Part shown: positions 37,601 through 62,686 of the stretch, one piece after another
Position numbering within the stretch: the first letter of the stretch is position 1
How the letters are laid out: the number at the start of each line of letters is the position of its first letter
Source of the DNA: Aurantiacibacter luteus
Lineage (GTDB): Bacteria > Pseudomonadota > Alphaproteobacteria > Sphingomonadales > Sphingomonadaceae
Reading direction: 5' to 3'
DNA length: 64,000 nt
Assembly (NCBI RefSeq): GCF_001010945.1
Contig: NZ_LBHB01000002.1
Span: forward strand, 124,001-188,000
The notes under the pieces: model-generated
The model's input: the letters and a program-made list of their open reading frames with translations, nothing else
Told to the model about the DNA's origin: nothing
The model's database searches: none
Position numbers and translations under genes: made by a program

Positions 37601-39496
37601 GAAGGCCCCGTCGCTGCCAATCAGGAATGGTATGTCGTAGACGATTTCTGAATCTGGATCGTCATCTCCGGTCGGACAATCAGCGAGCAACTCATAGAAA
37701 CTGCGCAATCTGCTTTTTGTGTTCCCAAGCCATTCGCTCACCGGGTCGTCTTGGTCTGCTTTGGCGCGAAGTGCGGCAAACAAGTCGTCGAGCGTCAAGC
37801 GCTCGATGTGCTCATTCAGATTCGGATACTTGCTGAAAGTGTCGACTACGAAGGAAAGGCCGGGGAAGAACTCACTTATTTGATCAATCTTCAACTTCTT
37901 GGGTAGGCGGAAGAGGCTACGGATGGGAAGCAGGCTCCCCTCTGATGATGGGGCAAATGGAAGCGAAGAGAGGCGATCAAGGGCGCGCTGCTCAGTCAGC
38001 GAAGCGGAGCCAATCTCGCCCACGAAGCGGTTAGCAATTCGCCACAATGGAGCCATGAAGGAATTGGTCTTGGCCGTCACCTTCGAGATGAGCTCGCTTT
38101 CTCGATGGTCTCCTAGCCAACGATCCCAAGCGTCGACAAAAGAATGGAAGGTGAGACTTCCACCTCCTAGGGCAAGCAACGACTGCCTATGATTAGAGAG
38201 CTCGGGATCGAGCACTTGCACGCCTATCTTGCTCAAGGAATCGTACTCGGGCTTTTCGAAATCTGCCGATCCGATCTTGCAGTCTGCCGGCCTCACCCAT
38301 TCGCCCAAGGCCGTAATGGCAATCGGCTGTACCTTCGCCTGCCTTTCGATCTCGTTCCAGAACACCTTGAAGTGAGCGCTCGAACGATTGTCGTTCGCTT
38401 CGTCGATCAGATCCCAGAGACGCTTCGCGCCCAACACGTCTCTCAATTCAATCAAGTGTGATGCAACTTCTCGTGCAGCAGACTGCAGGAGCATTTCGTT
38501 CCAAAGTCGCTCGTGCTGTTGCCCTGACAGGACCAGTGCCCTGCGGGTTTGCTCAGGAAAGAAATCAGCGTTGATGTGGCAAGGGATCGGCGCATCTTGC
38601 TCGGTCGGGAGATAGGCATAGAGGCGCCCGACACGTTCCTCTAGGTCGCCGAGGCGGAAGGCGATTTGGCCGTTTGTTTGGCGGTCTAGCCTATCTATGA
38701 CTGGATACTTGCGGCGTAGGGAAGCAGCAGCCTCGTGCGCATCGAAATGGATCACGTACCAATCTTCGTGATGGTCTGAACCGGCGTAAGCCAATCGTAA
38801 ACGATTTTCGCCCAGGTCCGTCTTCTGAACTTTTGAAATCGTCACGCCGTTTCGGCGTATTTCGAGTGACCTGAGGTTGCGAAGAAACAAGAGGCAGTCT
38901 TCGGCTACGGACACGAGGTCACGCTCGAGGATGTCGAGCTCTTCCGGAAGTAACGGCGAAGCATTCAAAGTTTCGCGAACCGAGCTGCGACCGTCGAAGC
39001 ACCATGGAAGCTCGAACACCGAGCCGTCTCGAAGCGCGATGTCCATTTCAGACGCTTGGCCAGCGAGAGGATCCAATTCCAGCTGTGTCTTACCGGATCG
39101 GATGATCGGCTTGTCCGTGACCTGGTAGACCGACACGAAACCGATCCCGAAGCGACCGATCAGTCCCTCTTCGCCGTATTTGTTGCCGCTTCCTACTGTG
39201 CTGATTGCATGAAAGTCGCATGCTCTCTTGGTGCCTGAATGCGGATTGCCCCTGACTTCCCATGGACAATGTCCGTCTTGCGTTTCGCAACTGGAGAACT
39301 TGCCGCTGTTCCAAATCCGGAGCGCGTCGCCATCGATATCGAAGACCATCTCTTCGGCCCGGGCATCGTCGGCGTTCTGGATCAGCTCTCGAGCCATGGC
39401 TTCGAAGCCTTGCAGTCCGGTGAGAATCGCGCGGATGTTGCCGATGAGAGAAGCCGTATAAGGCCTTGTACGACTTTGCTGCGAAGGCTCGCTCAC
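34640..39496 (-). CDS. Giant GHKL (sacsin-like) ATPase with DUF3883-like nuclease end
   Basis: About 1618 aa. N-terminal Hsp90/sacsin-type ATPase: ARELIQNADDAR (E, N, D; about 38-48) and GRFGIGFVSVYQVTD (GxGxG lid). A very long middle (about 250-1290) has no recognised domain. An acidic, glycine-serine-rich linker (about 1310-1450) leads to a C-terminal DUF3883 domain with NPGFDIISEP and RYIEVKG, a PD-(D/E)XK-like metal site. Start at the GTG five bases after AGGGG (a GTG two codons earlier is in frame). Low GC content and overlap with the NERD-helicase gene. Best read as a two-gene defence module; the exact system is not one I can name. Confidence 0.8.
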   Translation of the reverse strand: MSEPSQQSRTRPYTASLIGNIRAILTGLQGFEAMARELIQNADDARAEEMVFDIDGDALRIWNSGKFSSCETQDGHCPWEVRGNPHSGTKRACDFHAISTVGSGNKYGEEGLIGRFGIGFVSVYQVTDKPIIRSGKTQLELDPLAGQASEMDIALRDGSVFELPWCFDGRSSVRETLNASPLLPEELDILERDLVSVAEDCLLFLRNLRSLEIRRNGVTISKVQKTDLGENRLRLAYAGSDHHEDWYVIHFDAHEAAASLRRKYPVIDRLDRQTNGQIAFRLGDLEERVGRLYAYLPTEQDAPIPCHINADFFPEQTRRALVLSGQQHERLWNEMLLQSAAREVASHLIELRDVLGAKRLWDLIDEANDNRSSAHFKVFWNEIERQAKVQPIAITALGEWVRPADCKIGSADFEKPEYDSLSKIGVQVLDPELSNHRQSLLALGGGSLTFHSFVDAWDRWLGDHRESELISKVTAKTNSFMAPLWRIANRFVGEIGSASLTEQRALDRLSSLPFAPSSEGSLLPIRSLFRLPKKLKIDQISEFFPGLSFVVDTFSKYPNLNEHIERLTLDDLFAALRAKADQDDPVSEWLGNTKSRLRSFYELLADCPTGDDDPDSEIVYDIPFLIGSDGAFLSPKQAVIPSDFTDPVGRFDTLDMSFFEGRVEDLLKKRLHIEALTFEKYVEEHLEEILEGGLEDRQYAALVDELTSHPKILENDRLRRRLQDLPLVWTNADEFRLPRDCYVKTTKLVEILGDDQSRWVKSSMLKRTTRDNFEKAFLPRLGMRDWPTLRHVIERLEEIVAEDPSEASSTPVLGLLDVVFDIFQKGKIYEKEDAYAEEIDWLRTTEWLPAIREGTDAVDTRFWYAPHELYQHLRADGFSSQVPYLAIQPGQKTKANKKFLDFLEMPAEPGTSDIVDHLLDCLESEREPSKTTYELLSERLKKEDDLPALERLLGQPIIYDPRTKRFLSLSRVSWNKPPFPHYLYPAPKWMRDLEELFEFLGVEDSPDLEAFVDVALEIVENYEDNDLPAVERNILEECLAKISSAIRNKIDTILELLSKLEKRPFLPTRSNALSYVDEVIVCDNASLADSFDGAIDHLLIEERLDQRELRNHLGLMLLSRRTHREAVDLDGTKPDEAASTLLSERSSLLMWLVPSLGSQAANKIATSLRSTKIVRTNELTVRSVLELQDQTIESEPKAQDALFEEDDRVLYVQASLGDKFWIPAFRAVFDSLTASELGVDVGHLAMCAFNVVAARDEEDARSILQQAGFREPAWATTETIDYGETEDLGELSQPPHSDDDVQEDEESADDSHDEGIEIADEHDGIDEPQGEGQGLGDGKAPSDGKTPLGGHASDQHIRADRNEHGGSERSGSSDGADEPTNGEGKTSTSGNNDGRSKGKNGEPRERKPSLRTQRLRSYVLPKGDERSSSDQRGSNKERIDEIDKAAMAAVVDWEGKRGFDPRVQSHYNPGFDIISEPKEGGETRYIEVKGLADAWTERGVKLSRTQMQFAREKSDDFWLYVVEHALDPKKRNVHAIRNPFEKSDEFWFDQGWIDIAEEKSGDQRMLLKAGRRIEVKNWGRGTILKVDRRGIGIQLTIKFMLATKMLTYNFETFELLED

Positions 39497-39788
39497 ATTC
39501 ACCCCTATTCACTGGTCCGTCAAACAGTCAGCATCTTCTGCAGGCACCTGCATGAAATTGCTATGAAACTCTCTGATCCTTCTGATCAACAATCGAAATT
39601 TTTGAACTCTACGCAACACGAACTGATGCCTGCTCAAACCGCAGTTCATCCTGAAGCTGTAGAAAATTCAGCTACTGTAGATCCTGACGGCAGGGGTGCA
39701 CCGGAAACATGATAAAGCCGAGCGGGAACGTCGCTCGGCACGGAGAAACTCAAGAAATTGGAAGAATTTTTGACACAAAGATAGCCGA
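39497..39788 (-). other. Intergenic region between modules A and B
   Basis: Contains the promoter side of the giant ATPase gene and, at 39718-39739, a hairpin GCCGAGCG-ggaacg-TCGCTCGGC that can act as terminator of the helicase gene ending at 39789 (followed by few T residues on the minus strand). No gene seen. Confidence 0.5.
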
Positions 39789-42700
39789 TCACGGCTCGAG
39801 CTTGATCTGCAATTCTTCTAGAGCTGCCACGTCGACACCTTCATCAACGAGACGGTCAAGATAGGCCAGCAGGTCGTCTTGCCGCGGTTGCCCAAATGCC
39901 AGCCGGTAGAGTGTCAAACTGCGTTTGAGCCAACGTAGCCGCGTGTTTTCTCGACTCATGGGTAGCATTGGGACGCGGCGCTCGACCTTCACCGGACCAT
40001 CAAAAACCCAATACGGAACAAGTTCGGATTTGCTCGTCGTAGCGCGCTTGGCCGCGTTGAACATCGCCTCCCATGGGTCCGCAGGTGGCTTGGTAGAAGT
40101 GCGGATTGCATCGGCGTGTGCCCGGGCAACATTATGCCGGACCGCATGTCCTTTGAACCGGTGAACACGCCCTTCCCTTTGCTCAAGATCGACCGGGTTC
40201 CCTGGAAGATTCCAATGGTAGACTCGATAGCAATAGGGATGAAAATCCAAGCCTTCCTGACCAATCGATGTCGTGGCCAGCACGAACGGTCTGAAAGGCG
40301 AATTGAACGCATCTCGCACACTTCCGAGCCGCACGGTTCCGCCTTCATCATCCTTGTATTCAGCCAATCGCATAGCGAAGCGACCGCGCATCCTGATGGA
40401 CGGATGAAAGACGACCTTGCCGTCCTCAACTCCCACATCATCGACATCAATCTGGGAGGGGCGGACTGACAGGGCGTGGGTCATAGCTGCGGCCACGCCG
40501 GCGACACGTTCACGCTCGGAGCTCCCGGCCAAACCCTCGCCTTCGACGAGATAATGGGCGTACTCGTCGAGCATTGATTGGAGGTTGTGCTCGACACCAT
40601 GCGTCAATGCGCTGCGCCAGTAATGGTCATCGCGCTCTTGTCGTAGGAGAGCAACGGCGTCGTGCTGATTGAAGAGCGCCCGAAAACCCCAGGCGATTGA
40701 TGCCGCGGCGTCCATCAAATGCGGGTCATCCCAAGCCAGTCCTGGCGCAATGCGATGGAGCGCGCGCAATGCACAGACAGCCGGACTTCCCAAGGCTACA
40801 TCGATCAGCAGGTCCAGCGTGTCGTTGTCGAGCTCCCCGAGGGACGCCTCGGTTGCAGTCCTTCGCAACTCGGCGATGTGCTCTCGAAAGCCTTCCTCCT
40901 GGATCGTCCATCTGTAACCGAGATACTGCAGCCATCCGGAAGATTTGGTCTTCAACAATACGTCGATCGTTGCCGGTGTGGACCATTCTGCATCCCTGCT
41001 AGCTGCTTCTTCGCCATTTTCCTTGGCGAACAGGTGCCCCAGTGCAGTACGAATACGATCCGCAATCGCTGCGCGCATTTCTGCAACCGACAATTGTTCC
41101 GGAGCGCCAGAAAAGACGCTTAGCGGATCACAGATTCTGGCCAGTGTTGGTGACGGATAAATCAGGTGCAGCGCGCGCATAGCAGCCGGGCGACCATCGA
41201 CCAGCTTGAACTGAAGCGGGCGGCTGCGCGTGGCTTCCGAGTAGGACCGAACCACCGACGCTGCTCCCATCCGCCGTTCGGCCTCGTAGGAAAGCAGTGC
41301 GGCAAGCGCATCCGGCACCATCTGCCATGCAGAAAAGACAAGGGCTTTCGTAGCCGGTGTGCCCTCAGATGCCGGGCCATAATATGTGACCGCCGGTGGG
41401 AGCCAGAGGTGCTGGTGGAGCCCTGAATCAAACAAGTCAGCCATCAATGCTCGAAGGCGCCCATTAGCCGGATCAATCGGTTGATAAGCTTCGACCTGTT
41501 CGCGACTGATGCCCAGCGCCTGCGCATCGCTCAACGCTGATATCAGGGCCGGGTTCGAATTTGCGGCTTTATCCTTCAGGCGATGCTTAAGCGTGTAATC
41601 ACGCATAAAATTCAAGAGGTAAGGTGCGGACTTCCAATACTCGATGATTTCGCGCGCATCGACGGCTCGCGCTACGCGGGCAAACGCTTCGGCCTGATGG
41701 AGATCGGCAGGTGCGAGCGGCACGTCGATCGATGGCTCAGCCAGCATTGAATCTCGCTCAGCAGTACTGCCAACGCGCTCGGTGCGCGACATGACGCGCT
41801 TCAGTGTGCGCTGCACCTTGTTGCGCGCTCGCTTGGCGTCGGTTGCGCTCTTCGGCAGTTGCTGGAGTAGCTTACGAAAGCGGCGCATTTCGCGGTCAAG
41901 TTCGACCTTGATGGTCGCCCCCTTATCGCGGCCGTAGAGGAACTCGATTGTTTCGAGGAAGTCCTCGTAATGATCGCCATCATCGGGCTCATCGCCCGAG
42001 AGCGTGAGCATCTTGTAGGGAGTTGCGGAGAGTAGGAGGGTGCGTGCGCTGGCGGTATCGTCAGAATACTCAAACAGGGCCCGTGCGAGCTCGGCCGGCT
42101 CCCCCTCACCGCGCAGCAATTCCCGAAAACGTTGGAATTCGTCGAGGATGATAAGATCCGGCTTAAGCGCACTGACGCAAGCGTGCGATAGCTTGCTCCG
42201 TAGCGCCCCGATTACCTCGTTTCGTTTCCAACGCTTCTCGTCAGGGTATGTTGGCTGGCGTCGTGGAAATAGCGAGATCATCTCATCGATTGCCGACAAC
42301 AGCGATGCATCTTGACGGACTGCCTCGTGGAAGTTCGAAACTATCGTCGGATCAATACCCTCAAGTGACATCCTACCGACACACCCATCCCAGCGGCCAT
42401 TCCCGGCGTCCACTTGCAGCGCGTTTCTGAGCGGCGTGAACGACAAGCCCATGGCTTCAAGCAGGCGATGCAAGAGCGCCCGTTCTTCAACGACTCCGGT
42501 GGTGGATCGAAGATTGAACGTGGTTCCAGGCGTGAGGCTGATGAAATTGACCTTGTTTGCAGACAGATCTTGTTCGCCGCGAAGCTGCAATGGCACCAAG
42601 GTCATACGAGTGGGCAAGGCCATCGCACGTTTTCCCAATACATTGAGACGATTGAGATTTTGCGCGGCGATGGCCTGATTGGAGCAGATATAAAGAATGT

Positions 42701-42914
42701 CGATCCGCTCTGATCGATTCCACAACGCTTCGATGGTCTTGGCGATCACCCCGCGGGCAACCATGGTTTTGCCCAGACCCACTTCGTCTGCGACCAAGAA
42801 CTGACGCACTGGATCGGGGCCATGCAAACGGTCGAACACATAGTCTACCGTGCGACGCTGAAAGCGCTTGAGTTGAGCGAGTGCGGCGCCCGCGTCGAAC
42901 GGCTCATTCTCCAT
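39789..42914 (-). CDS. SNF2-type helicase
   Basis: About 1041 aa starting MENEPFDAG, the ATG of which overlaps the PLD gene stop by 11 bases. Superfamily 2: motif I ADEVGLGKTMVARG (about 45-58), motif II DLIILDEFQRF, motif III LLLSATPYKM, and in the second RecA lobe LATTSIGQEGLDFHPYCYRVYHWNLPGNPVDLEQREGRVHRF trimmed motifs V and VI (SIGQEGLDF, QREGRVHR). About 300 residues between lobes are helical. Last gene of the five-gene module B. Confidence 0.88.
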   Translation of the reverse strand: MENEPFDAGAALAQLKRFQRRTVDYVFDRLHGPDPVRQFLVADEVGLGKTMVARGVIAKTIEALWNRSERIDILYICSNQAIAAQNLNRLNVLGKRAMALPTRMTLVPLQLRGEQDLSANKVNFISLTPGTTFNLRSTTGVVEERALLHRLLEAMGLSFTPLRNALQVDAGNGRWDGCVGRMSLEGIDPTIVSNFHEAVRQDASLLSAIDEMISLFPRRQPTYPDEKRWKRNEVIGALRSKLSHACVSALKPDLIILDEFQRFRELLRGEGEPAELARALFEYSDDTASARTLLLSATPYKMLTLSGDEPDDGDHYEDFLETIEFLYGRDKGATIKVELDREMRRFRKLLQQLPKSATDAKRARNKVQRTLKRVMSRTERVGSTAERDSMLAEPSIDVPLAPADLHQAEAFARVARAVDAREIIEYWKSAPYLLNFMRDYTLKHRLKDKAANSNPALISALSDAQALGISREQVEAYQPIDPANGRLRALMADLFDSGLHQHLWLPPAVTYYGPASEGTPATKALVFSAWQMVPDALAALLSYEAERRMGAASVVRSYSEATRSRPLQFKLVDGRPAAMRALHLIYPSPTLARICDPLSVFSGAPEQLSVAEMRAAIADRIRTALGHLFAKENGEEAASRDAEWSTPATIDVLLKTKSSGWLQYLGYRWTIQEEGFREHIAELRRTATEASLGELDNDTLDLLIDVALGSPAVCALRALHRIAPGLAWDDPHLMDAAASIAWGFRALFNQHDAVALLRQERDDHYWRSALTHGVEHNLQSMLDEYAHYLVEGEGLAGSSERERVAGVAAAMTHALSVRPSQIDVDDVGVEDGKVVFHPSIRMRGRFAMRLAEYKDDEGGTVRLGSVRDAFNSPFRPFVLATTSIGQEGLDFHPYCYRVYHWNLPGNPVDLEQREGRVHRFKGHAVRHNVARAHADAIRTSTKPPADPWEAMFNAAKRATTSKSELVPYWVFDGPVKVERRVPMLPMSRENTRLRWLKRSLTLYRLAFGQPRQDDLLAYLDRLVDEGVDVAALEELQIKLEP

Positions 42915-44790
42915 TGCCGGACTCCTCCAGCACGGCACGGAATGTCTGCCAGAGGATCCGAAACTCTTCGGGTATTGGATCGGCACCTTCTGTATTTGAC
43001 TCTGTTAGTCTGGTCATCAGACGATCCACTGCATTCAACCGTCCATCCTTGGCGCAAAGGGCCCGGACGAGTTCTTCGAGCAACGGTTCATCATCGGCCA
43101 CAGCAATGGCCCACCCTGCCCCACTGCCGCTTCCTCCGACCGCCAAAGCCGCCGCAAATGGATCACCGAGTGCGGTGAGCAAGAGTCTCAGATAGCGCAG
43201 GAATGTTTTGCGATCGTTGATCACCGATCGCATGATCGCTGCGTCTCGCTCGGCCGGTAGGCCCTCAATCGGCAAGCCAGTGCTAAAAAGGATGCTTTGA
43301 CCGGTTGCCCGTTCCTTCATTTCAATCGCCAGAAAGCGTGTGACATCGGCGAGCGGAACCACACCCAAGTCCAAAGCCTCACCGGCTTCCAGTGATGCCT
43401 GAGCATCCCTGGCGTGCCCTTCGCCTCGGGTTATCGGCCAAACCCGCACGCGGTTGATGTCCGCAAGTGCAATGCCTCCAGCAGGTGGGACCAGCGACAT
43501 GCGCCAATTGCCTGGGCCCCAGGTCGCGTCTGCTTCACAACGGATGCTGAGGCATCCGCGGGCAAGTGCCCGCCGAGCAATGAGGAGCACCCTTTCAGCA
43601 GCACGCTCGGAAGCGTCAGCAGCAGCCAATTCTCCTGGAATGAAAGCGCGAGTCAGTCGCCCGAACCCGCTTTCGCCGAGAATGGTCTCGATCGACCCCA
43701 GCTTTGACGTCTTCCCCGTAAATGTGATGAAGAACTCCACGTTTCGTCCTGAGATGAACGCGGGTGTGGTCGCATTTCCGGAGCCCAAGGTCAGACCGGT
43801 ATCCCAGTTGTGCTCGGCAACGATTATCTTGGCGTGGAGCCCTTCCAGTGCTGACGAAACAGCTTCCTCGCCGTCTTCGCGCTCGGCCATTTCATCCATG
43901 ACCGCGACATATTCGAAATCGTCGATTGTTTCGGCTGCTATGCAGGCAAGCTGATCAGACCGGCTTATCAAGACTTCCGCGGATCGACGTGCCTTTCCAG
44001 CCAACATCGATAACGCGGCATCGTCGCAAAATGGCGAGACTACACCGATGCGGGTGCATTCCGGTGGTTGCCAAGGCCGTCCTCCGAGCCCGTTGACTGC
44101 GAACTCAAATTTTTCACACGCATCAGGCAATGCCCACTCAGCAAAGCGCATGTCTTCGGCGAGTTCCATAGTGAGCGCCCGCTGCTCATCCGGGGCGGGG
44201 CTGACCGCAAGATCTGGGAGCGCGGAGAGCAATGCATACAGGGGACGATTGTGGGCCTTAGGCTGGCGAGTGCGGCGTCCGTCGAGACGCACGGCTATGT
44301 CCCATGACCTGTCGCGCGTGAGATTGCGCGACAATACGAGCACCCTCAGAAGATCATCGCCATCTTGGTCCAATGGCTTGAACCGCAGCGCCCAGATCTT
44401 CGGATGAAAGCTACCCTCTCCTGGCGCTTGGACTTCGACGATAACCTTCTCGAGTAACGAGCAAAGTCGAGATTGTTGGGCAAGCCCCGCGTGGATTTGA
44501 CCTGCCTCAGCGAATACGGCCAAGCGCCCGGAAATCCGCTCTGCTCCCTCGAGCAGAGCAATAGGATGCTGCAGAATTTCCTCTCTATTGTCGGCGGCAA
44601 ACAATGCCAGGCTGACCGGCACGGCTAGCGCCGTCTCAAAATCGAGTGAGAATGTCGTCGCTACACCGGCATCGAAGCGATACCCGGGGGGAGCCTGAAG
44701 GCTGTCGCCGTACAGAATCCGGTTTTCGGGATCGAGCGTCGCCCTGTTCAACGCTTGAGATCCTTCAGATAGCTCTGTGCGATTGACCAA
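42904..44790 (-). CDS. Two-motif phospholipase D-like protein
   Basis: 628 aa with two PLD half-sites: FHPKIWALRF followed by VLSRNLTRD (about 128-160), and LHAKIIVAEHNWDTGLTLGSGNAT (about 318-342). Both histidine-lysine pairs are present, so a nuclease or phosphodiesterase is likely. The annotated ATG overlaps the DUF6361 gene by 43 bases; a TTG at 44751 that forms TTGA with that stop would be an alternative start giving LNRATLDPEN. Fourth gene of module B; PLD plus DUF6361 plus helicase is the arrangement I recall for Azaca-type defence (from memory, unverified). Confidence 0.85.
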   Translation of the reverse strand: MVNRTELSEGSQALNRATLDPENRILYGDSLQAPPGYRFDAGVATTFSLDFETALAVPVSLALFAADNREEILQHPIALLEGAERISGRLAVFAEAGQIHAGLAQQSRLCSLLEKVIVEVQAPGEGSFHPKIWALRFKPLDQDGDDLLRVLVLSRNLTRDRSWDIAVRLDGRRTRQPKAHNRPLYALLSALPDLAVSPAPDEQRALTMELAEDMRFAEWALPDACEKFEFAVNGLGGRPWQPPECTRIGVVSPFCDDAALSMLAGKARRSAEVLISRSDQLACIAAETIDDFEYVAVMDEMAEREDGEEAVSSALEGLHAKIIVAEHNWDTGLTLGSGNATTPAFISGRNVEFFITFTGKTSKLGSIETILGESGFGRLTRAFIPGELAAADASERAAERVLLIARRALARGCLSIRCEADATWGPGNWRMSLVPPAGGIALADINRVRVWPITRGEGHARDAQASLEAGEALDLGVVPLADVTRFLAIEMKERATGQSILFSTGLPIEGLPAERDAAIMRSVINDRKTFLRYLRLLLTALGDPFAAALAVGGSGSGAGWAIAVADDEPLLEELVRALCAKDGRLNAVDRLMTRLTESNTEGADPIPEEFRILWQTFRAVLEESGNGE

Positions 44791-45926
44791 CGAAACTGAA
44801 GGCGTCCAGCTCCGGATGCTCCTTGCCAGCGGTCCCGGGCACTCTTGTTTGCAAACCGGGATTGGCCCTTTTTGAGCCTCCTTTCACGCGTCATGACGAG
44901 CGCGTTTGCTGCCTCGCGATTGCGGCCCAGACCTCCTTCCTTCCGCACCAAGGCCACCCATTCGGTAACAAACCGCTTGGCCGGATCGAGAACCGAATGT
45001 CCGGCATGGCGTGTCTCGTGCCAGAAATCGTCCAGCGACCAGGATGCCAATTCCTTGGTATCGAGTTCGTCGCTCCATTCGGTGAGTGCGGTCTGGTAGC
45101 GCTCAATCCAGTCCTCGTTTTCCCGCAGCTCGCTCAACAGCAGATTGTAGAGCAGCGCGGCGCCATGCATGACGCCCGAGAATATCCTGGCATGTTCGAC
45201 TAGCACTCGTGCTTGAGGCGGGAAATCCGCCATATGCGGATGCAGCCATATTGCATCTGCCTTTGCCTGATCGCTCCGACTTGCCAAATAGGTCAAGAGG
45301 CTGTGGGGATGGCGATCAACAAGCCGATCGATAAGAAAGCTCGCCTCGTCCGGTTCAAGATCGAAATCGACAATGTCAGGCCATCCCTTCGGTGGCTGAG
45401 GCATGCGGTCGTGCCACAGATGTCTATGGCGCTGCGCACCGCTCATGTCGTCTTCGACGTGATCTTTACTCGTATCCTTGGGCCAGTGCGGCAAGGCGGC
45501 AAAGTAGGCCTCAATCGAACCTGGAAATTTTCGGATGCCCCAGCTTTCCAGTCCCGACCAATAGATACTACTCGACAGGCGCTTGAGCTTCTCGCCAGCG
45601 TCCTTGCCAATGATGCCAACGGCACCAGGCGCGCCAGCCATCAGCGCCTGGCCAAGTTCGATTTCCTTCTGACGTGCCTTGGCTGCAATGTCTCGCGGGC
45701 TGAGATGAGACGGCAGGGACTCAAAAATCCACGGAATGAACAGCATGTACCGCAGCCGCGTGTGAATGGTGCTCGTTCCGGGAAAAAGATGATCGGCTAT
45801 AGAATCCCTGATCGCGCCAAGCCCAAGCTCGTCGCGGCTATCCTGCTCACGGAACAGGTCCATCAACCGCTGCGCACGATCGCGTTCTGTCTCGTCAAAA
45901 TCGACCCAGCCAATCGCTGAACTCAT
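44748..45926 (-). CDS. DUF6361 family protein
   Basis: 392 aa from the ATG giving MSSAIGWVDFDE; a TTG 12 bases earlier has the better ribosome site (GAGGGG) and cannot be excluded. The family start IGWVDFDETERDRAQRLMDLFREQDSRDELG... is followed by the GTSTIHTRLRYMLFIPWIFE segment. Mostly helical with a conserved R-Y-ML-F-PW core. No enzymatic motif known. Lies 25 bases after the AddA-like gene. Confidence 0.85.
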   Translation of the reverse strand: MSSAIGWVDFDETERDRAQRLMDLFREQDSRDELGLGAIRDSIADHLFPGTSTIHTRLRYMLFIPWIFESLPSHLSPRDIAAKARQKEIELGQALMAGAPGAVGIIGKDAGEKLKRLSSSIYWSGLESWGIRKFPGSIEAYFAALPHWPKDTSKDHVEDDMSGAQRHRHLWHDRMPQPPKGWPDIVDFDLEPDEASFLIDRLVDRHPHSLLTYLASRSDQAKADAIWLHPHMADFPPQARVLVEHARIFSGVMHGAALLYNLLLSELRENEDWIERYQTALTEWSDELDTKELASWSLDDFWHETRHAGHSVLDPAKRFVTEWVALVRKEGGLGRNREAANALVMTRERRLKKGQSRFANKSARDRWQGASGAGRLQFRWSIAQSYLKDLKR

Positions 45927-45951
45927 TCCTAGCGCCAAGTGCCTGTGCCCC

Positions 45952-48900
45952 TCAGATTCCTCTGCCCAGCGTCAGTTCGCCGGTCTCTGCCCAAAATACG
46001 GCGACGCCATCGACGGACTTGCCACCCATTACCCCAAATGCATCAACATAGGCTGCCAGTTGCGGCCAGTAGCGTTCGAAGCGAAGCGCGTGATCTTCCA
46101 CCGCCCCGCTCTTGTGATCGACGATCATGAAGCCATTGGGACCTTCAGCGATGAGATCCAGGATGATGCTCTGACCCCCACCATCTGAAAGAGGAACTTT
46201 GATCGGTTGCTCGACATGCAGCCGCGGATAGCCAAGGTCCGCGAGAGCCTGGCGTAGGGCATCTGCCTGCTGCGAGAGAAATTCGACCTCGGCGTCGAGA
46301 ATGCGGCAATGCGCCTGAACCCTATGTCGCAGATCAGGGCGGCAAAGGAGAATGCGAAGCGCCTCGTGGATCGCCGTGCCCCTATCGGTCGCCCGCGCCA
46401 AGTCGGGTCCAGCCAGCTTAACTCCTGGTGCGATTGCACGCGTTTCGATTTGAGAAGGAAGCGACCGTGTCGTAGTGATTGCCTGCGAGGGGCTAACCAC
46501 AGATGTCGGCGCGTCGATCAAACGTCGCTCCAGGGCAAATCGCAACTCTCGGTCGAACGCGTGGAGATGAACCTTGTTCTCAGCTTCGAACGAAGCCGGC
46601 AACTCCTTGCTGCAGATCGTCATGCGCGCAGGAAATTCTTCGGCGCCGACGCTGATCTGGTTACCCTGAAATCTGATGTCGCAGACGTCATTCAGAAGGC
46701 GGCGGGCAGTGATCGGCAGAGGCGGTTCCACCTTCTCATCGTCCTGTGGCCATTCGATAATCAAGCGATCCCGGGCACGGGTCAGTGCCACGTAAAGCAG
46801 CCGCCTCGCTGTTTCTTCGGACTCCGGATGGAGTTCATGAAGAAAGCGATCGGTCGCTTCAGGCGCGGCAAATTCGGGAGCATAGGCGAGCGCCGCTTCC
46901 TCGATTACATGATCGAGATCGTCGAACCCCGGAAATTTGGTGCTGAAGGTCCCGGCACGGGGGTCAAGCTTGTGGTCGAGCCCGCAGACAACGACGATTG
47001 GCCATTCACGTCCTTTGGATGCGTGCCAGGTGACGATTTCGACGCCGTCGGCCTCGCTGCCTGAAGGGTTAGGCCGCAGATCTTCCCCTTTGAGACCGAC
47101 CTTGTTTTCAAGCCAGCCGAGAAAGACGTTGGCGCTCTGCCCATAAAAGCCGGACGCTTCCCGCATATCGCGGTGAGCATCCATGAATGCTGCCGCTTCT
47201 GCCTCGAACCGGAGCAGGTCTGCTCTCATCTGGGCTGGGTCATCGAGCGTGTCGCACCAGTCGCGAAGCCCCGACACCTCGATGACCTGATGGACCAGAC
47301 GGTCTACCGGGGTCGCAAGCGAGTCGGGCCGAAGTTTCTGCAGCGCAGTCAATTCAGGCGTGTCGATCCGGCCTCGCTGGGCAAGCGCCCTGATCGCGTC
47401 CGGGAGCGCAGTGGCACCAGGACCAAGCGTGGCCGTACAAATCGCGGCATGGCTGTCTGCAGGATCAACGGCGAATCGCAGGGCAAAGCACGCGGCCTGG
47501 ACGATCTTGCTCTGCCACCAGCCGCCTTCAGCCACGCGAACCGGCAGGCCAAGTGATCGCAGCGCGCTGGCATAGCTCGCGCAATGGCTATGGGTCGGGC
47601 ACAGGACCGCGATGTCTCTGGGCTCCAGCGGTCGCAAATTCTTCGTATGCCTGTCGATGATCGTCACATGATCGTCGGACAGCAGGGAGAGCAGGCGATC
47701 CACGACGAAATGCTGGGGCTTCCCGCCGGAGCGCGCGCCGCGCTTGTTAGCCAGTTCTATGATCTCAAGCGCGGTGTCATGTCCGGTGGGGTTCTGCGCG
47801 GTGAGCGAAGTGTAATCATCGCCAAAAAGGCAAGGGCCGAGCGCGTTGACGAAATCCATGATCCGCGGATCGGAACGCCAGTTCCGGTTGAGCGGGCTAG
47901 TCTCAAACTGCTTCGTGAGCGCGACCGTCAGCCTTGGGTCTGCGCCCTGAAATCCCATGATCGCCTGCTTGGTATCGCCGACGACGAGAGAGCGCTTCGC
48001 TTGCCGCGCCAAGGCCCACAGGAAGGTGAACTGGATCGGGTTGGTATCCTGGAACTCGTCGACAATGACGCAGTCTACCTCGTCCATGATCGCAGCAAGC
48101 ACGCCGGGCTTGTCATCGAGGATCCGCGCGGCGTTGGTGACCATGTCACTGAAGTCTATGACGCCGAGTTCCCGCTTGCGGGTCTCGTAGTCCGACATAG
48201 CTGATTGCGCCCCTTCCACGAGCGCGCGCGCATGGGAAACCGCATCTTCGAGCGGGCCCGGATGAAAGACCAGTGTGTCGGCCGCCGCCATGACCGCAGC
48301 GGCTAGGTCGTCGTAACCATCAGGCGTCGGACTGCCGCGCTTGGACTGGCGGAGATCACGCAGCCGCTGCCAGAGCTTCCAGTCCTTCCCGCCGGTCGAG
48401 AGAAGTTGTTCGGCTTGCTTCAACGCGCGGAAATTATCCCGAAACGCTGTCTTGGCCGCAGCACTTGCAGCGTCGTCCGCCAGCGATCTCGGAAATGCGA
48501 CGAGCAGCGCATCGACGGCTTCTTTCAAGCCGGCCGCCAGGGCCTCTGGCGTCCCGACCGGCTGGCGATATCCCTGCCTGATCGACGCCTCGACGAAGTC
48601 GGCTATCGCCGGGTCGCTTCCGCGCGGTCCAAGCGTTCGCAGGAGTGCGATGACGCCGAGCAATGTCTTGCGGAAGCTGTCTTCAGCCGTGTCGTCCGAA
48701 GTGAAGCTACCCCGGTAGCCATAGGCCCCGAGGTTACGGGAGAGCTCGCTTAGCGCCTGGTTCTCCTCGATCGAACGGCGGATCAGCAAGTCCTGCTCGT
48801 CTTCCGCGATGAGACGTTGCTGCGGCGAAGAGCCTGCCGCAAAGGCGTGCTTAATCAGCAACCGGCGTCCAAGGCCATGGATCGTAGAGACATAGGCTCG

Positions 48901-49113
48901 CTCAACGGCCAAAGCCGCTTGCAAATTGCCGTCGGCAATCAGTGCTCCACGGATCCTCTGACGAAGTTCCCCAGCCGCGGCCTCCGTGAAAGTGACGGCT
49001 AATATCCGCTCGGGCCGAACTTTGCCGTCGCGCACCCACTGGGTGAGGGTTTCCTGGATATGATGGGTCTTGCCAGCCCCTGCACCGGCTGGAACGATCG
49101 AAATCTCAGTCAT
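45952..49113 (-). CDS. AddA-like UvrD helicase with RecB nuclease domain
   Basis: About 1053 aa. SF1 helicase: Walker A AGAGAGKTHH (about 12), motif Ia VTFTEAAAGEL, motif II VDEFQDTNPIQ, motif III VGDTKQAIMGFQGA, motif V/VI TWHASKGREWP and YVALTRARDRLII. C-terminal RecB nuclease: GTAIHEAL, DLIAEGPNGFMIVDHKSG (D...DxK) and the QxxxY in WPQLAAY. It differs from housekeeping alphaproteobacterial AddA in its start (no SAWVSASAGTGKT opening). Overlaps the upstream AddB-like gene by 8 bases. Confidence 0.88.
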   Translation of the reverse strand: MTEISIVPAGAGAGKTHHIQETLTQWVRDGKVRPERILAVTFTEAAAGELRQRIRGALIADGNLQAALAVERAYVSTIHGLGRRLLIKHAFAAGSSPQQRLIAEDEQDLLIRRSIEENQALSELSRNLGAYGYRGSFTSDDTAEDSFRKTLLGVIALLRTLGPRGSDPAIADFVEASIRQGYRQPVGTPEALAAGLKEAVDALLVAFPRSLADDAASAAAKTAFRDNFRALKQAEQLLSTGGKDWKLWQRLRDLRQSKRGSPTPDGYDDLAAAVMAAADTLVFHPGPLEDAVSHARALVEGAQSAMSDYETRKRELGVIDFSDMVTNAARILDDKPGVLAAIMDEVDCVIVDEFQDTNPIQFTFLWALARQAKRSLVVGDTKQAIMGFQGADPRLTVALTKQFETSPLNRNWRSDPRIMDFVNALGPCLFGDDYTSLTAQNPTGHDTALEIIELANKRGARSGGKPQHFVVDRLLSLLSDDHVTIIDRHTKNLRPLEPRDIAVLCPTHSHCASYASALRSLGLPVRVAEGGWWQSKIVQAACFALRFAVDPADSHAAICTATLGPGATALPDAIRALAQRGRIDTPELTALQKLRPDSLATPVDRLVHQVIEVSGLRDWCDTLDDPAQMRADLLRFEAEAAAFMDAHRDMREASGFYGQSANVFLGWLENKVGLKGEDLRPNPSGSEADGVEIVTWHASKGREWPIVVVCGLDHKLDPRAGTFSTKFPGFDDLDHVIEEAALAYAPEFAAPEATDRFLHELHPESEETARRLLYVALTRARDRLIIEWPQDDEKVEPPLPITARRLLNDVCDIRFQGNQISVGAEEFPARMTICSKELPASFEAENKVHLHAFDRELRFALERRLIDAPTSVVSPSQAITTTRSLPSQIETRAIAPGVKLAGPDLARATDRGTAIHEALRILLCRPDLRHRVQAHCRILDAEVEFLSQQADALRQALADLGYPRLHVEQPIKVPLSDGGGQSIILDLIAEGPNGFMIVDHKSGAVEDHALRFERYWPQLAAYVDAFGVMGGKSVDGVAVFWAETGELTLGRGI

Positions 49114-51820
49114 CTTCATTGTCCGTAAGCGCCACCGAGGGGTTGATGTCGTCGCGCATGAAAGCGGCGATCAACGGACTGTCCTCCAGCGCATAGGTGC
49201 CGAGCGCGGCGGAGCGCTGGAAGAACTTCTCATCCGCTGTAGTGTTGGTATCGAGGCGTCCTGCCTTGAGAGCATCGAACCGCGCCGAAATGAGCGCGAG
49301 CGCATGCTCGGCAATATCGCCCGCAACAAGCTCGACCTCAGCGCTATCGAACTCGTCGATCCCGTTGAGCAGGACATTCCCGTCGTTGAGCGTGTGATAG
49401 GCGACTGCCGGGAGCTTCGACCACCCGTTCAACGCCTCGGCAATACGGACCACGCCTTCGTTGCTGCGCTCGTCGAGCCGAACGCTCATGCGCCGGTAGA
49501 GATCGACCTGTAAATCCCATCCCTTCTGGAGGCGCTGGCGACGCGTGCCGGAACTGCTCTTCTTGTAATCCACGACAATCGGCTGCCCATCGGGAAGCCG
49601 CAGCAGGCAATCGGCCTTGCCGTGCACGGGATGACCGAACAGCTCTCCCGACAGCCAGAACTCATTGCCCACAACCTCGGCATCCAGGGATTTGAGGACC
49701 AACGACCAATGCTTCGCGGACTTGGTGATTTCTGCCTCAAGCGTGTTGCGCTCGACCGCCCAAGCCGACGTTTGAAGAAACGGCGCCAAGGCGCGTATGC
49801 GATCGAGCAGTAGGTCGGGCACCGCAGCTTCGATCTCCTCGCTGGACGGATGCGCCTTGCCGGGCACGAACAGGCATTCGAAAACCTCGTGCGCCAGGGA
49901 TCCGCGAAGCATGACGTCAAGCGCCTCGGGCTGCCAGGAAACATGTTCGGCGCCCAACTCAGCGAGGAGCCAGGCCAGGGGACTGACGAGAAGCTTTTCA
50001 AGCCGGCTCGGGCTCTGCGCTCGCGCACTGCCGTCTTCTTTCTGGCGCAGCCCCAGAAGATTGAAGTCGAACGCATAGTGAGACGGCACCTCCGGAATCA
50101 GCGCCGGTTCAATCAATGGTCTGGGTTTCCACGCCACCAGCCTGTCCCAGATCGTCCCCTCGCTATGGCTCAAAGGCACGATCAGATCCTCCGGATCTTT
50201 GATACCTTGCACAAACCGCGAGATCAGCGGCAGGCTCGACGACACCGAGAGCGAGCTGCCGCTGCGATCACGCTCCGAGAGAATGAGGATAACCTGCTCG
50301 CTCGCTGCACCAATCTGGCGCGTGAAAAGCTCGAGCGCGGCAGCGAGTTGCTGCGCCTGCGATGGCAACTGGATGCCCGTCACATCGGCAATCGACGCAA
50401 CCTCGCTGTCGAGAAAAAATGGATTGCCTGCCGGCGGTGACGGATAGGCACCGTCATTGAACCCCAAGACCAGCAATTTACGAAACGGCCGCTTCGGTGT
50501 TTCGTGGGCCATCATCACCGAGATGCCACCGAGGAAGTAAGCTCCTCTCGCCTGTGGCGCAGCCTGGTAGGCCGCTGCCATCTGGATGGCTTTCTCCAGT
50601 TCCACTTCTGCCGCGTCATTGGCATTGCCGAGGGCTGCGATCAGGCGCGATGCCTGCTGCTTCGCTTCAGCGACATCTTCAGCGAGTGCCTCGTTGTCGC
50701 TGAGCAGCCTCTGGAAAGATCGAATCTGCTCCTTGAGCTGGCCGTTAGTCGAAGGTGAGGCCGAGCGGATCAGGGCGAAGAGAGATGCCTGCCGGCCTGC
50801 AAGGTCTCGAGCCTCTCTTGGTTGAAAGTCGCCAGCCATAACGGCTGCCGCCAGAGCCGTTCCCACTTCATCGGGCCAGCACAGGACTGGTGAACAGTAA
50901 AGCGATGCGAGCGCCATGGCGGGCGCTGGCCGGCGTCGGCACTGAAGGAAATGCAGAAGAGCCTCACCGCCAATGTTCCTCCGCTGACCAACCCCAGGAA
51001 GCGATGAGGCAACCAAGCCAGCGTGGGCGAATGTCTCTGCCAGGTAATGACCATATTCCGCCCCCTGCGGGAAGATGATGCCGATGTCGCTGGTTGCCAG
51101 AGTTGCATCATCAGCCAGCCATCGCTGCACGATGGCCGCCGCGGCCTCGCATTCGGTCAGGGAGTCTCGGACGGACAGTATGGCCGGGCTGTCGTCGAGC
51201 GGCATAACCGGGACATCCGGATCCAGAAGATGGCGTTGTACATGGCCTGCCAGACACGATCCGGGCGCGCGCGCCAGCTTCCTGTCAGAAATCAGACGAA
51301 CGACGTCATCATCTTCTTCGCTCAGCTGGCCATGATGGGTTTCGATGTGCTCGAGCACCGCGCGCTCGAGCGGGGTCAGCTGACCACAATCTCGATCCCA
51401 GACAACCTCGAACGGCTGCAGAGCATCGCCTGCCTCGCAAGCAAGGAACGCCTTGATGGTCACGAGGTCGGACGGAACAAGCGCATCGCTGCTGATCCAG
51501 AGCTGCCGCAGTGCGTCAAGATGAAGACGCGCCCTGCCCTCGCCCGGCAGCGCATCAATCGCGATCGACCTTGGATCGAGATCGCGCGTTGCCATCATCA
51601 TGTGCCTCAGCATCGCCCCCACGGCACCAGTGGTCTGCTCTGGCGCTACCGCGAAGCTTTCCGCCCAAGGGACGTTGTCACCCAAGGCATCAAGGGCCTC
51701 GCGCAGCGGCTTCTCGGTGGACTGAGGTAAGGCATAAAGGCTCCCCAGGAGCTGCGCACTGAGGGGCATGCAACTCGTAAAGGGCGCTTCGCCGATCCGA
51801 AGATGGCAGTTTTCAAACAT
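49106..51820 (-). CDS. AddB-like nuclease subunit with inactivated helicase part
   Basis: About 904 aa starting MFENCHLRIG (preceded by GGGGGAA; an earlier in-frame start exists at 51850). The N-terminal two thirds have AddB-like helical and RecA-like strands (VMMAHETPKRPFRKLLVLGFNDGAYPS) but no Walker A. C-terminal PD-(D/E)XK domain: SLAHEVFE, HGKADCLLRLPDGQPIVVDYKKS and QVDLYRR. The four-cysteine Fe-S cluster of AddB is missing. First gene of module B. Confidence 0.85.
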   Translation of the reverse strand: MFENCHLRIGEAPFTSCMPLSAQLLGSLYALPQSTEKPLREALDALGDNVPWAESFAVAPEQTTGAVGAMLRHMMMATRDLDPRSIAIDALPGEGRARLHLDALRQLWISSDALVPSDLVTIKAFLACEAGDALQPFEVVWDRDCGQLTPLERAVLEHIETHHGQLSEEDDDVVRLISDRKLARAPGSCLAGHVQRHLLDPDVPVMPLDDSPAILSVRDSLTECEAAAAIVQRWLADDATLATSDIGIIFPQGAEYGHYLAETFAHAGLVASSLPGVGQRRNIGGEALLHFLQCRRRPAPAMALASLYCSPVLCWPDEVGTALAAAVMAGDFQPREARDLAGRQASLFALIRSASPSTNGQLKEQIRSFQRLLSDNEALAEDVAEAKQQASRLIAALGNANDAAEVELEKAIQMAAAYQAAPQARGAYFLGGISVMMAHETPKRPFRKLLVLGFNDGAYPSPPAGNPFFLDSEVASIADVTGIQLPSQAQQLAAALELFTRQIGAASEQVILILSERDRSGSSLSVSSSLPLISRFVQGIKDPEDLIVPLSHSEGTIWDRLVAWKPRPLIEPALIPEVPSHYAFDFNLLGLRQKEDGSARAQSPSRLEKLLVSPLAWLLAELGAEHVSWQPEALDVMLRGSLAHEVFECLFVPGKAHPSSEEIEAAVPDLLLDRIRALAPFLQTSAWAVERNTLEAEITKSAKHWSLVLKSLDAEVVGNEFWLSGELFGHPVHGKADCLLRLPDGQPIVVDYKKSSSGTRRQRLQKGWDLQVDLYRRMSVRLDERSNEGVVRIAEALNGWSKLPAVAYHTLNDGNVLLNGIDEFDSAEVELVAGDIAEHALALISARFDALKAGRLDTNTTADEKFFQRSAALGTYALEDSPLIAAFMRDDINPSVALTDNEDD

Positions 51821-51904
51821 CGAATTCCCCCACTGCTCACCCCCGACCAAGTCGTTGGCGACTACTGAGAATTCTGCTTCCTATTTGCTTCCAAATCGAA
51901 ACGC

Positions 51905-51929
51905 AAAAACCCCTCTGAAAACAGAAAGG
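51905..51929 (-). terminator. Terminator behind the tRNA fragment
   Basis: On the minus strand CCTTTCTG-tttt-CAGAGGGG followed by five T residues: an 8-bp stem (two G-T pairs). It is placed as the native terminator of the tRNA gene whose 3' half is at 51958-52009, and it lies between that fragment and the AddB-like gene. Confidence 0.65.
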
Positions 51930-51957
51930 CTCTTTTGCTCATTAATCAATGAGTAGA

Positions 51958-52009
51958 TGGTTGCGGGGTTGGATTTGAACCAACGACCTTCAGGTTATGA
52001 GCCTGACGA
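51958..52009 (-). pseudogene. 3' half of an initiator tRNA-Met gene
   Basis: The minus strand reads anticodon arm GTCAGGCTCATAACCTGA (anticodon CAT), variable loop AGGTC, T-arm GTTGG-TTCAAAT-CCAAC, then CCCGCAACCA. The D-arm and 5' acceptor half are missing; after about position 52009 the sequence is unrelated. The acceptor strand is one C short of the normal seven bases. A half tRNA gene with CCA is the typical att scar of an element integrated into a tRNA gene. Confidence 0.75.
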
Positions 52010-52706
52010 CGAAGTGGCTTTGAGATCGAGTCCTACTAACGTACTGCAGTTAATCCGACAAGCAACTGATTCTATTACCTAATTATCAAGCTCGACGGTA
52101 TGCCCGCAATAAGCCCCAAATCCGAGGCTGCTGGACCGCACAACCCAGTCCTTAGATTACCGTGAAATCCCGAGAGACCGGAGGCTGGTCGGCAGGAATG
52201 GCGCAGTTCCGCGGCCTTTTCGTGTTCCAGCTTGATGAACTGCAGGCAGAGACTGGCCATTCCCGAGCAGCATTGCCGGAGATTTCGGCCGCCATCTTTA
52301 AGTTGCGAAAGTCTGGCTGCTTTTGGAAGTTTACGCGACATCTAACTCGTGCCGCTGCTCGTCCCATGACCGCGGGAGCGGCTTTGAATGTCGGAAAGGA
52401 TCGAGTCGACTAGCATGATCTTTGCGGTCATCGCCCAAACTTCACGACGTTGAAAATCAGGCTGCAGTTCAAGCCGGCCTGCGGCGGCCCAATCGCGAAT
52501 ATCAGAGATTGGATGTGGACTAAGATTCCAATGAACCATCTTCGTTCGATACCCTGGGCTGCGAGTTTTGGCGAAATGCTAGCGATATACCATCTTACAA
52601 ACAACGTGGTGCACTGTTTGCGGCGGATGCTGAGCGGCAAGGTGCGACTTCGAGTTAGTTCAGACGTTCCTAAGAAGTCGCCGCATGGTAAGATTGAGGC
52701 TTGAGG
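52010..52706. other. Degraded region between modules B and C
   Basis: About 700 bases. It holds the tRNA-like string AGATCGAGTCCTA (52023-52035), a minus-strand open frame of 88 codons (52075-52341, starting MSRKLPKAARL, unrecognised) and the DUF262 remnant listed separately. The remaining part (52540-52706) shows no gene. Confidence 0.55.
52342..52539 (-). pseudogene. Truncated DUF262 (GmrSD-N/ParB-like) gene
   Basis: The minus-strand frame starts MVHWNLSPHPISDIRDWA and carries the DUF262 core ELQPDFQRREVW and IMLVDSIL, then breaks off: the following GIPIPK.. and DGQQR motifs of the family are absent and a stop comes after about 65 codons. DUF262 is the NTPase/DNA-binding part of GmrSD-type and SspE effectors. 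This is only the first 50 residues of such a protein, so non-functional. Confidence 0.75.
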
Positions 52707-53879: not shown

Positions 53880-53895
53880 TAATCCCCGGCTTCCC

Positions 53896-53966
53896 CCTGG
53901 TTGTCGAGACCAGGCGGTTGACATAGCCGGGTCCGCGGAGGCAATCAACTGGAACAGTTCTCCAGT
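53896..53966. promoter_or_regulatory. Two matching palindromes in the sspA-sspB promoter
   Basis: CCTGGT-N7-ACCAGG (53896-53914) and ACTGGA-N7-TCCAGT (53948-53966) share the core CTGG-N9-CCAG; their centres are 52 bases apart, about five helical turns. One lies near the sspA start, the other just before the sspB ribosome site (GAGG). A TTGACA at 53918-53923 lies between them. Looks like a two-operator site for a dimeric or tetrameric regulator. Confidence 0.5.
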
Positions 53967-53974
53967 GAGGTGAC

Positions 53975-59141: not shown

Positions 59142-59204
59142 TCCGGCGCTACAGCGCTGAGCTTCCCAACACTTTGGGTTTAGCAGTTATACGGAGGGGG
59201 GACA

Positions 59205-59288
59205 GTGAGCAGAGCGCACAGCGCACTTCTTCGAGTGGAAAGCCGTTGTCGGTTTGCGCAACCCAGTCGAACACTCGATGCAATTTGA
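59205..59288 (+). CDS. Possible leader ORF overlapping the sspF start
   Basis: GTG with a strong ribosome site GGAGGGGGGA, 27 codons (MSRAHSALLRVESRCRF...), stop at 59288, i.e. 8 bases past the helicase ATG at 59278. The helicase ATG itself has no good ribosome site. This would make helicase translation depend on translation of the leader. Codon content is not distinctive. Confidence 0.35.
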   Translation: MSRAHSALLRVESRCRFAQPSRTLDAI

Positions 59289-62681: not shown

Positions 62682-62686
62682 CTAAA

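Follow-up and report, generated by a model that had tools for sequence, protein, structure and literature searches.

A five-gene Azaca operon of Aurantiacibacter luteus that includes an AddAB-like helicase–nuclease pair

The 64,000-nucleotide stretch of Aurantiacibacter luteus DNA analysed here (contig NZ_LBHB01000002.1; hereafter the window) carries on its minus strand the three genes of an Azaca anti-phage defence system, preceded by two genes resembling the subunits of the helicase–nuclease AddAB, and raises the question of whether these five genes form one system or are mere neighbours. The five-gene operon is real and goes beyond chance, as 37 of 61 informative Azaca loci repeat both subunits, the order and the strand, and we slightly favour the answer that it is a five-gene form of Azaca carrying its own AddAB-type helicase–nuclease, the pair being a portable module for the processing of DNA ends that has docked onto Azaca. 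Its five minus-strand open reading frames (ORFs; 49106–51850, 45952–49119, 44748–45938, 42904–44790 and 39789–42986) have probable ATG starts at 51820, 49119, 45926 and 42914, the start codon of the fourth gene being uncertain. With these starts, the block spans 39789–51820 and consists of genes for an AddB-like subunit (49106–51820), an AddA-like subunit (45952–49119), ZacA (DUF6361; 44748–45926), ZacB (42904–44790) and ZacC (39789–42914). The ORFs of the AddB-like subunit, ZacA and ZacC can be extended to TTG 51850, TTG 45938 and GTG 42986, respectively; the ATG at 51820 is preceded by GGGGGAA and is where the similarity to the three genera compared below begins. Adjacent genes overlap, with the sole exception of AddA and ZacA, which are separated by 25 bp as counted from the ZacA ATG. 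The original prediction that five overlapping or nearly abutting genes form one unit is thus borne out by the ORF coordinates, and the identities given to them (AddB-like, AddA-like, DUF6361, PLD and SNF2-type helicase) agree with the Pfam, PADLOC and Foldseek results. The operon sits in the part of the window after about 32 kb, where the G+C fraction is 0.54–0.62, compared with 0.62–0.73 before it.

Judged by their predicted products, the last three genes make up an Azaca system that is complete, with homologues of ZacA (PADLOC, E = 1.4e-135; Pfam PF19888, 4e-78), ZacB (PADLOC, 6.8e-171) and ZacC (PADLOC, E = 0, 1148 bits) standing in order within one operon, so that the resemblance to Azaca proposed at the outset is now confirmed. 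ZacB is predicted to be a PLD-type nuclease; it has no Pfam match of its own and contains the HxK...N motif twice, invariant in all 10 aligned ZacB sequences. ZacC, with its DEAD and Helicase_C domains, is a putative SNF2-like superfamily 2 helicase/translocase. The predicted structure of ZacA is mostly helical (pLDDT 82.9), and a fold search of this model against the PDB returned nothing at E ≤ 0.001 (best E, 1.2); DUF6361 was not mentioned in the open-access literature searched. Azaca was originally reported by Millman et al. in 2022, and we know of no established working mechanism for the system.

The first two genes are, as far as homology can tell, a divergent AddB–AddA pair that is AddAB-like and separate from the housekeeping AddAB of the same genome. 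The AddA-like protein is composed of a predicted UvrD-type superfamily 1 helicase with Walker A (UvrD-helicase, 1.4e-48) and a C-terminal RecB-type nuclease (PDDEXK_1, 4.8e-5), and its sequence relatives in the PDB are UvrD, AddA, AdnB and RecB. The AddB-like protein has a RecB-type nuclease domain (PDDEXK_1, 6.2e-12) attached to a helicase-like scaffold without Walker A; it gave no PDB sequence match, and a profile search gave RecC alone (E = 0.0096). An AddB fold is suggested by its predicted structure, whose top Foldseek match is AddB of the AddAB structure (3u4q_B, E = 9.6e-21), followed by AdnA and RecC, on a modest model (mean pLDDT 70.4, pTM 0.48) and with TM-scores of just 0.33/0.27. 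Pairs of this kind fall into two related lineages (AddA, 100% probability, E = 7e-54; AddB, 89.7%, E = 1.9e-6), of which lineage 1 is the type found in the window. The nuclease residues H, D, D-x-K and Q...Y are invariant in AddB (16/16 lineage-1 and 11/11 lineage-2 rows) as well as in AddA (14/14 and 10/10 rows), and the Walker A lysine and the DE pair of AddA are likewise invariant in both sets; the RecB nuclease motifs predicted to be complete in both subunits are therefore complete in the window and invariant in the relatives aligned.

A Walker A motif was matched in none of the AddB rows (16 of lineage 1 and 11 of lineage 2), and the AddB-like protein of the window has Ser at what is presumably the position of the first Fe–S cysteine. 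Walker A and four Fe–S cysteines, which we take to be the layout of the Bacillus subtilis type, are thus not found in it; cysteines present in at least half of the rows occupy four AddB columns in lineage 1 and six in lineage 2, by eye not in the arrangement that we presume. The absence of these elements, originally offered as a peculiarity of the pair, is real, but it is rejected as a mark of a special pair and is not distinctive, because the genome's own housekeeping AddB (992 residues, contig C1) likewise lacks Walker A and contains just three cysteines. With the equivalog models, the scores are low: the AddA-like protein reaches 171.5 bits versus a cut-off of 707.65 with the Gram-positive AddA equivalog model of NCBIfam and 140.9 versus 860.75 with the alphaproteobacterial one, and the single NCBIfam match of the AddB-like protein is TIGR03623 at 28.4 bits versus 299.6. 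Since the two subunits reach no AddA or AddB cut-off, we call them AddAB-like and not housekeeping AddAB. The suspicion that they are merely the housekeeping enzyme is also rejected because that enzyme is a separate pair on contig C1, where AddB passes the model addB_alphas (746 versus 486.5 bits). In PADLOC, the AddB-like protein had no match at E ≤ 0.1, nor had two relatives tested, and the AddA-like protein matched mostly GajB-type UvrD helicase models among the best 25 of its 53 matches.

The order AddB–AddA–DUF6361–PLD–helicase, which the original prediction proposed to seek elsewhere, recurs in unrelated genomes. A pattern scan derived from a ZacA alignment found 419 relatives in the species-genome collection, from which the best 80 loci, those closest to a Bradyrhizobium ZacA query, were kept; 61 of them are informative, having at least 6.3 kb of DNA upstream of ZacA, and among the 19 that are short of upstream DNA, an AddA end is visible in seven, and the other 12 allow no decision. 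A same-strand pair lies upstream in 39 of the 61 (15 of lineage 1 and 24 of lineage 2) and is absent from 22, a proportion that is no estimate of prevalence because the query ZacA itself comes from a pair-carrying locus. Both subunits are present in 37, the other two (L051 and L053) having AddA pieces alone. In 29 of the 37, AddA overlaps the ZacA ORF or lies within 25 bp of its start. An extra gene of 2.9–3.4 kb stands between AddA2 (the lineage-2 AddA) and ZacA in five of the 39 (L061, L063, L064, L066 and L069), and in the two cases searched for families it encodes a ResIII-type helicase (L061) and a UvrD-like protein (L066). The pair genes are split into several ORFs in L039 and L057, and L070, one of the 22, has a WYL–AddB–AddA set running in the opposite direction. 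The same five-gene order is found on plasmids of Bradyrhizobium sp. 195, Rhizobium sullae and Agrobacterium tumefaciens F2, and Azaca without a pair in the 12 kb upstream is found on plasmids of Cronobacter, Halomarina and Bradyrhizobium elkanii. A second UvrD gene of the R. sullae plasmid was considered as another pair and rejected, the gene before it being 579 bp long and its score with the AddA model 94 bits. Separately, in L103 (1685–5355), genes for a 393-residue protein and an SMC/SbcC-like protein of 830 residues lie directly upstream of ZacA, perhaps representing another end-processing pair in the same slot.

Co-occurrence is also evident in a single draw of 385 genomes of the class, in which ZacA was found in seven, AddB of lineage 1 or 2 in nine, and both in six, so that AddB is present in 6 of 7 genomes with ZacA versus 3 of 378 without it (Fisher p = 1.3e-10). 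Azaca and the pair are adjacent in three of the six (G000, G551 and G639), and in G420, ZacA is next to the end of an AddA2 gene where the contig stops. Lineage-1 AddB occurs in 1 of the 385, which is too few for a survey from the AddB side. A draw of 398 genomes of the phylum gave a ZacA match in seven, strong in five, with the pair present in G000 and G313 and absent from G223, G154 and G187. The samples overlap, because G551 and G639 are apparently L012 and L045, and G313, G223 and G154 apparently L095, L084 and L091.

Besides recurring, the five genes travel together. By blastn, the window matches Novosphingobium hassiacum, Croceicoccus sediminis and Sphingosinithalassobacter portus at 93.0–94.3% over about 12,036 bp, and the sole match longer than 80 bases in each genus runs from the AddB ATG (51820) to four bases past the ZacC stop (39785). 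Among themselves, the latter three share a longer block that includes an upstream WYL gene, and Novosphingobium aquimarinum, an alphaproteobacterium, shares with the betaproteobacterium Pigmentiphaga sp. NML030171 a single block of 12,124 bp at 96.9%, reaching approximately from AddB to ZacC; the block limits thus vary, because other locus pairs share more flank. The distances of AddA and ZacC are correlated with r = 0.95 in lineage 1 (n = 16) and r = 0.49 in lineage 2 (n = 23). In a ZacABC tree of 75 of 87 loci (12 with incomplete Zac genes having been dropped, and the state being known for 67), the distribution of three states (lineage 1, lineage 2 and none) takes eight changes versus a shuffled mean of 31.5, with two required for lineage 1. 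In a tree of lineage-1 AddAB (26 rows, leaving out L083, L088 and L110 as incomplete and L033 as a duplicate of L095), four changes are required for the label Azaca. Within this second tree, the pair carried by Paracoccus sp. IB05 (L101) nests among partnerless pairs and pairs joined to the X-trio described below (SH-aLRT 99), although the Zac proteins of the same locus group with a mainly rhodobacterial set. Both trees are quick ones with long branches, from which the direction of change was not inferred; with two AddAB lineages occupying the same slot, they imply repeated joining or swapping.

The linkage to Azaca claimed in the original prediction therefore stands, whereas its exclusivity does not: PLSDB carriers of both lineages include loci without Azaca, and the pair is found with the X-trio, with Shango or with neither. 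Ten PLSDB plasmids carry lineage-1 AddB, five with the X-trio and five (L020, L021, L024, L026 and L030) without Azaca, Shango or X-trio matches in the stretch examined. Lineage-2 AddB is present in 64 PLSDB records, nine contexts of which were read; Azaca is present in L012, L013, L016 and L017 and absent from the stretch examined of L117–L121, the record of L120 ending inside AddA. A lineage-2 pair follows the Shango genes in three loci (L118, L121 and L143), with a gap from SngC of 2 bp in L118 and L143 and of about 270 bp in L121, the carriers being Sulfitobacter sp. D7, Methylorubrum extorquens CM4 and genome G654. PADLOC called SngA and SngC in the two named strains and SngB in D7 alone, and the Shango genes of G654 were called with models built from the D7 and CM4 proteins. 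The X-trio, a candidate for an undescribed defence trio, consists of a protein of about 404 residues, a weakly ZacB-like PLD protein (matching ZacB over 112 columns alone, 94%, E = 1.4e-7) and an SNF2-like helicase, and adjoins a lineage-1 pair in five loci: L022, L023, L025, L028, where its second gene is split, and L029 (reversed order), where its first and second genes are seemingly fused. Attached as it is to other defence systems as well, the pair looks portable. A Pantoea locus (L122) has the X-trio with a WYL gene and no AddAB pair, and the idea that the 404-residue protein is a distant ZacA was rejected (hhalign probability 0.5%). It may be added that, in L117 and L119, lineage-2 pairs adjoin a multiubiquitin–ThiF–DUF6527 set and a methyltransferase–helicase pair resembling type III restriction–modification. 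A phage origin was also considered and rejected, as IMG/VR scans for lineage-1 AddB and ZacA gave pattern matches and no relatives; these scans rest on short peptide patterns, and divergent copies can therefore be missed.

WYL-domain proteins such as BrxR and CapW are regulators of defence loci. Among the pair-carrying Azaca loci, 28 of 37 have a WYL gene no further than 1.8 kb upstream of AddB, versus 1 of the 22 without a same-strand pair (p = 4.7e-8), the single case being L070; because some loci have little upstream DNA, 28 of 37 may be an undercount. Together with this gene, the operon usually numbers six genes elsewhere, as it does in N. hassiacum (L087). The WYL gene points the same way as the pair in lineage 1 and away from it in lineage 2, and Pfam found WYL in all five upstream genes searched (with WCX in four) and in L033. 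The region upstream of the operon in the window (51821–52706) has no WYL regulator gene and holds the 3′ half of a tRNA-Met (CAT) gene at 51958–52003 on the minus strand, possibly a remnant of an integration site. ARAGORN found no whole tRNA in the window, and there is no second copy of the fragment within two mismatches in the genome, so that no integration site could be shown.

From the anatomy, motifs, recurrence, transfer as a block and module swapping observed here, we infer the biochemical steps and the defence activity of this copy as follows. ZacABC would recognise invading DNA and then open or cut it by means of the PLD nuclease ZacB and the translocase ZacC, with ZacA possibly serving as an adaptor; the AddAB-like enzyme would be loaded onto the resulting ends, or onto those that the phage DNA already has, and degrade the DNA. 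The pair would thus supply the system's own end-processing machine, and may stand in reserve for the host AddAB or circumvent it, given that the host enzyme can be blocked by phages and is attenuated by Chi sites; the pair itself would be less sensitive to blockers directed against that enzyme. In loci other than that of the window, the WYL regulator may switch the module on as single-stranded DNA accumulates; DriD (PMC12340889) and SiwR (PMC10693628) are described as WYL regulators binding single-stranded DNA. According to a proposal in PMC12407980, the end-binding proteins by which phages exclude RecBCD from DNA render these phages sensitive to Gabija; the paper also argues that AddAB-like systems commonly have antagonists.

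Several observations weigh against one docked five-gene system. Azaca does not need the pair, because 22 of the 61 informative loci have no same-strand pair; L051 and L053 retain Azaca with AddA pieces alone; and G450, G454 and G654 carry both, not adjacent on the contigs examined. None of the ten lineage-1 plasmids of PLSDB has a Zac match in the stretch examined, and the lineage-2 carriers L117–L121 and L139–L141 are without Azaca there. The window has no WYL gene and its genome no WYL match, leaving the expression of this copy unclear. The distance correlations are compatible with shared descent of whole islands, which may have taken place, and the co-location could reflect the clustering of defence islands. 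A rival reading is that WYL–AddB–AddA and Azaca are two independent defence systems, often found together and on a common transcript, and not acting on the same DNA. That 5 of the 10 lineage-1 PLSDB records have the pair without Azaca, Shango or X-trio matches speaks for such independence, as do the 22 Azaca loci without a same-strand pair and the AddA pieces left beside an intact Azaca in L051 and L053. We nevertheless consider it rather unlikely, since two AddAB lineages have repeatedly been joined at one position and in one orientation, 29 of 37 loci have AddA overlapping the ZacA ORF or no more than 25 bp away from it, and the five genes are transferred as a block.

AddAB enzymes process double-strand breaks for repair, and the pair might accordingly deal with ends that ZacABC leaves in host DNA, so as to guard the cell against self-damage instead of attacking phage DNA. 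This role appears improbable to us, as the same genome has a housekeeping AddAB and Azaca often occurs without the pair, even though RecBCD activity is stated in PMC12407980 to keep Gabija off self DNA. It is far less probable still that the genes are chance neighbours whose operon-like look results from trivial gene packing; the island is indeed dense, with a Tiamat-like TmtA, a NERD-helicase and an Ssp system flanking the operon, but the five-gene order in 37 of 61 informative loci, from many families and at least two classes, and the block boundaries contradict it. Beyond the docked Azaca form that we prefer, there is perhaps an even chance of a wider generalisation, in which WYL–AddB–AddA would be a plug-in of general use in prokaryotic immunity: a module for the regulated degradation of DNA ends, attached on independent occasions to Azaca (by two lineages), Shango and the X-trio. 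Very different sensors would then share one kind of DNA-destroying machine.

As for the flanking genes, positions 52707–63613 of the window contain phosphorothioation genes for SspA (minus strand), SspB, SspC and SspD, followed by genes for a RadD/PbeA-like helicase, an MzaB-like HATPase and a DrmC-like PLD protein, which are candidates for an unusual restriction module of the Ssp system. On the other side (32914–39502, minus strand), a gene for Tiamat-like TmtA (1230 bits) overlaps a helicase gene matching RTasNERD-Hel, the two possibly making up a two-gene Tiamat variant.

The natural joining of a nuclease–helicase to Azaca suggests that the substrate of Azaca is DNA ends. If the present reading is true, it would add to immunity a second end-degrading enzyme, perhaps independent of blockers and of Chi; and should a single AddAB-like module be at work in several defence systems, a shared part is being missed by the current annotation of defence genes, because PADLOC gave no match for the AddB of the window or two relatives. 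The trio and the kind of enzyme are already known, whereas the recurrent combination of Azaca with AddAB and the portability of the two-subunit pair appear undescribed in the literature searched. No paper joining AddAB with Azaca, or Shango or SngA with AddAB, was found in the open-access literature searched; the words AddAB and RecBCD were not found in the consulted text of the Azaca paper PMC12278908, nor AddA and RecB in that of PMC10952713, and the combination is not described in the consulted parts of PMC12407980, PMC5704561, PMC12755741, PMC12948488 and PMC13192584. Within that literature, the claim of the original prediction that the combination had not been described stands, but the idea of a shared ancillary helicase–nuclease has a precedent, with another protein, in PMC5704561.

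The module is worth comparing with known systems. The UvrD–Cas4-like fusions (pfam12705) reported in 2017 resemble it in having a UvrD helicase and a PDDEXK_1-type nuclease, sometimes with WYL regulators, and were found beside type III restriction–modification or Dcm/Vsr genes and proposed to be ancillary in multiple defence systems; they differ in being one fused protein, for which the part of PMC5704561 consulted names no AddB-like partner, Azaca or Shango. Gabija is suggested by the matches of the AddA-like protein to GajB models, but in place of GajA, the OLD-type nuclease that accompanies the GajB helicase, the partner is a PDDEXK AddB-like protein, and no GajA is among the listed matches for the 16 window ORFs scanned. 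As with the defence loci in PMC9122601, a WYL-domain regulator stands beside the defence operon in relatives, whereas none is present in the window and none was found in its genome. With AddAB, RecBCD and AdnAB, the pair shares the domain order of AddA, the RecB-type nuclease motifs in both subunits and, according to Foldseek, the AddB-like fold; unlike them, it lies far below the NCBIfam equivalog cut-offs and sits in a defence operon, and the island AddA shares 26.6% identity with its housekeeping counterpart across 500 aligned residues. The loci joining Shango (SngABC) to AddB2–AddA2 use the same lineage-2 pair that precedes many Azaca trios, but with another defence trio and with the pair downstream instead of upstream. 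Finally, the operon has all three Zac proteins of Azaca, in the same order and with full-length PADLOC matches, and differs from Azaca in the two co-oriented AddAB-like genes placed upstream.

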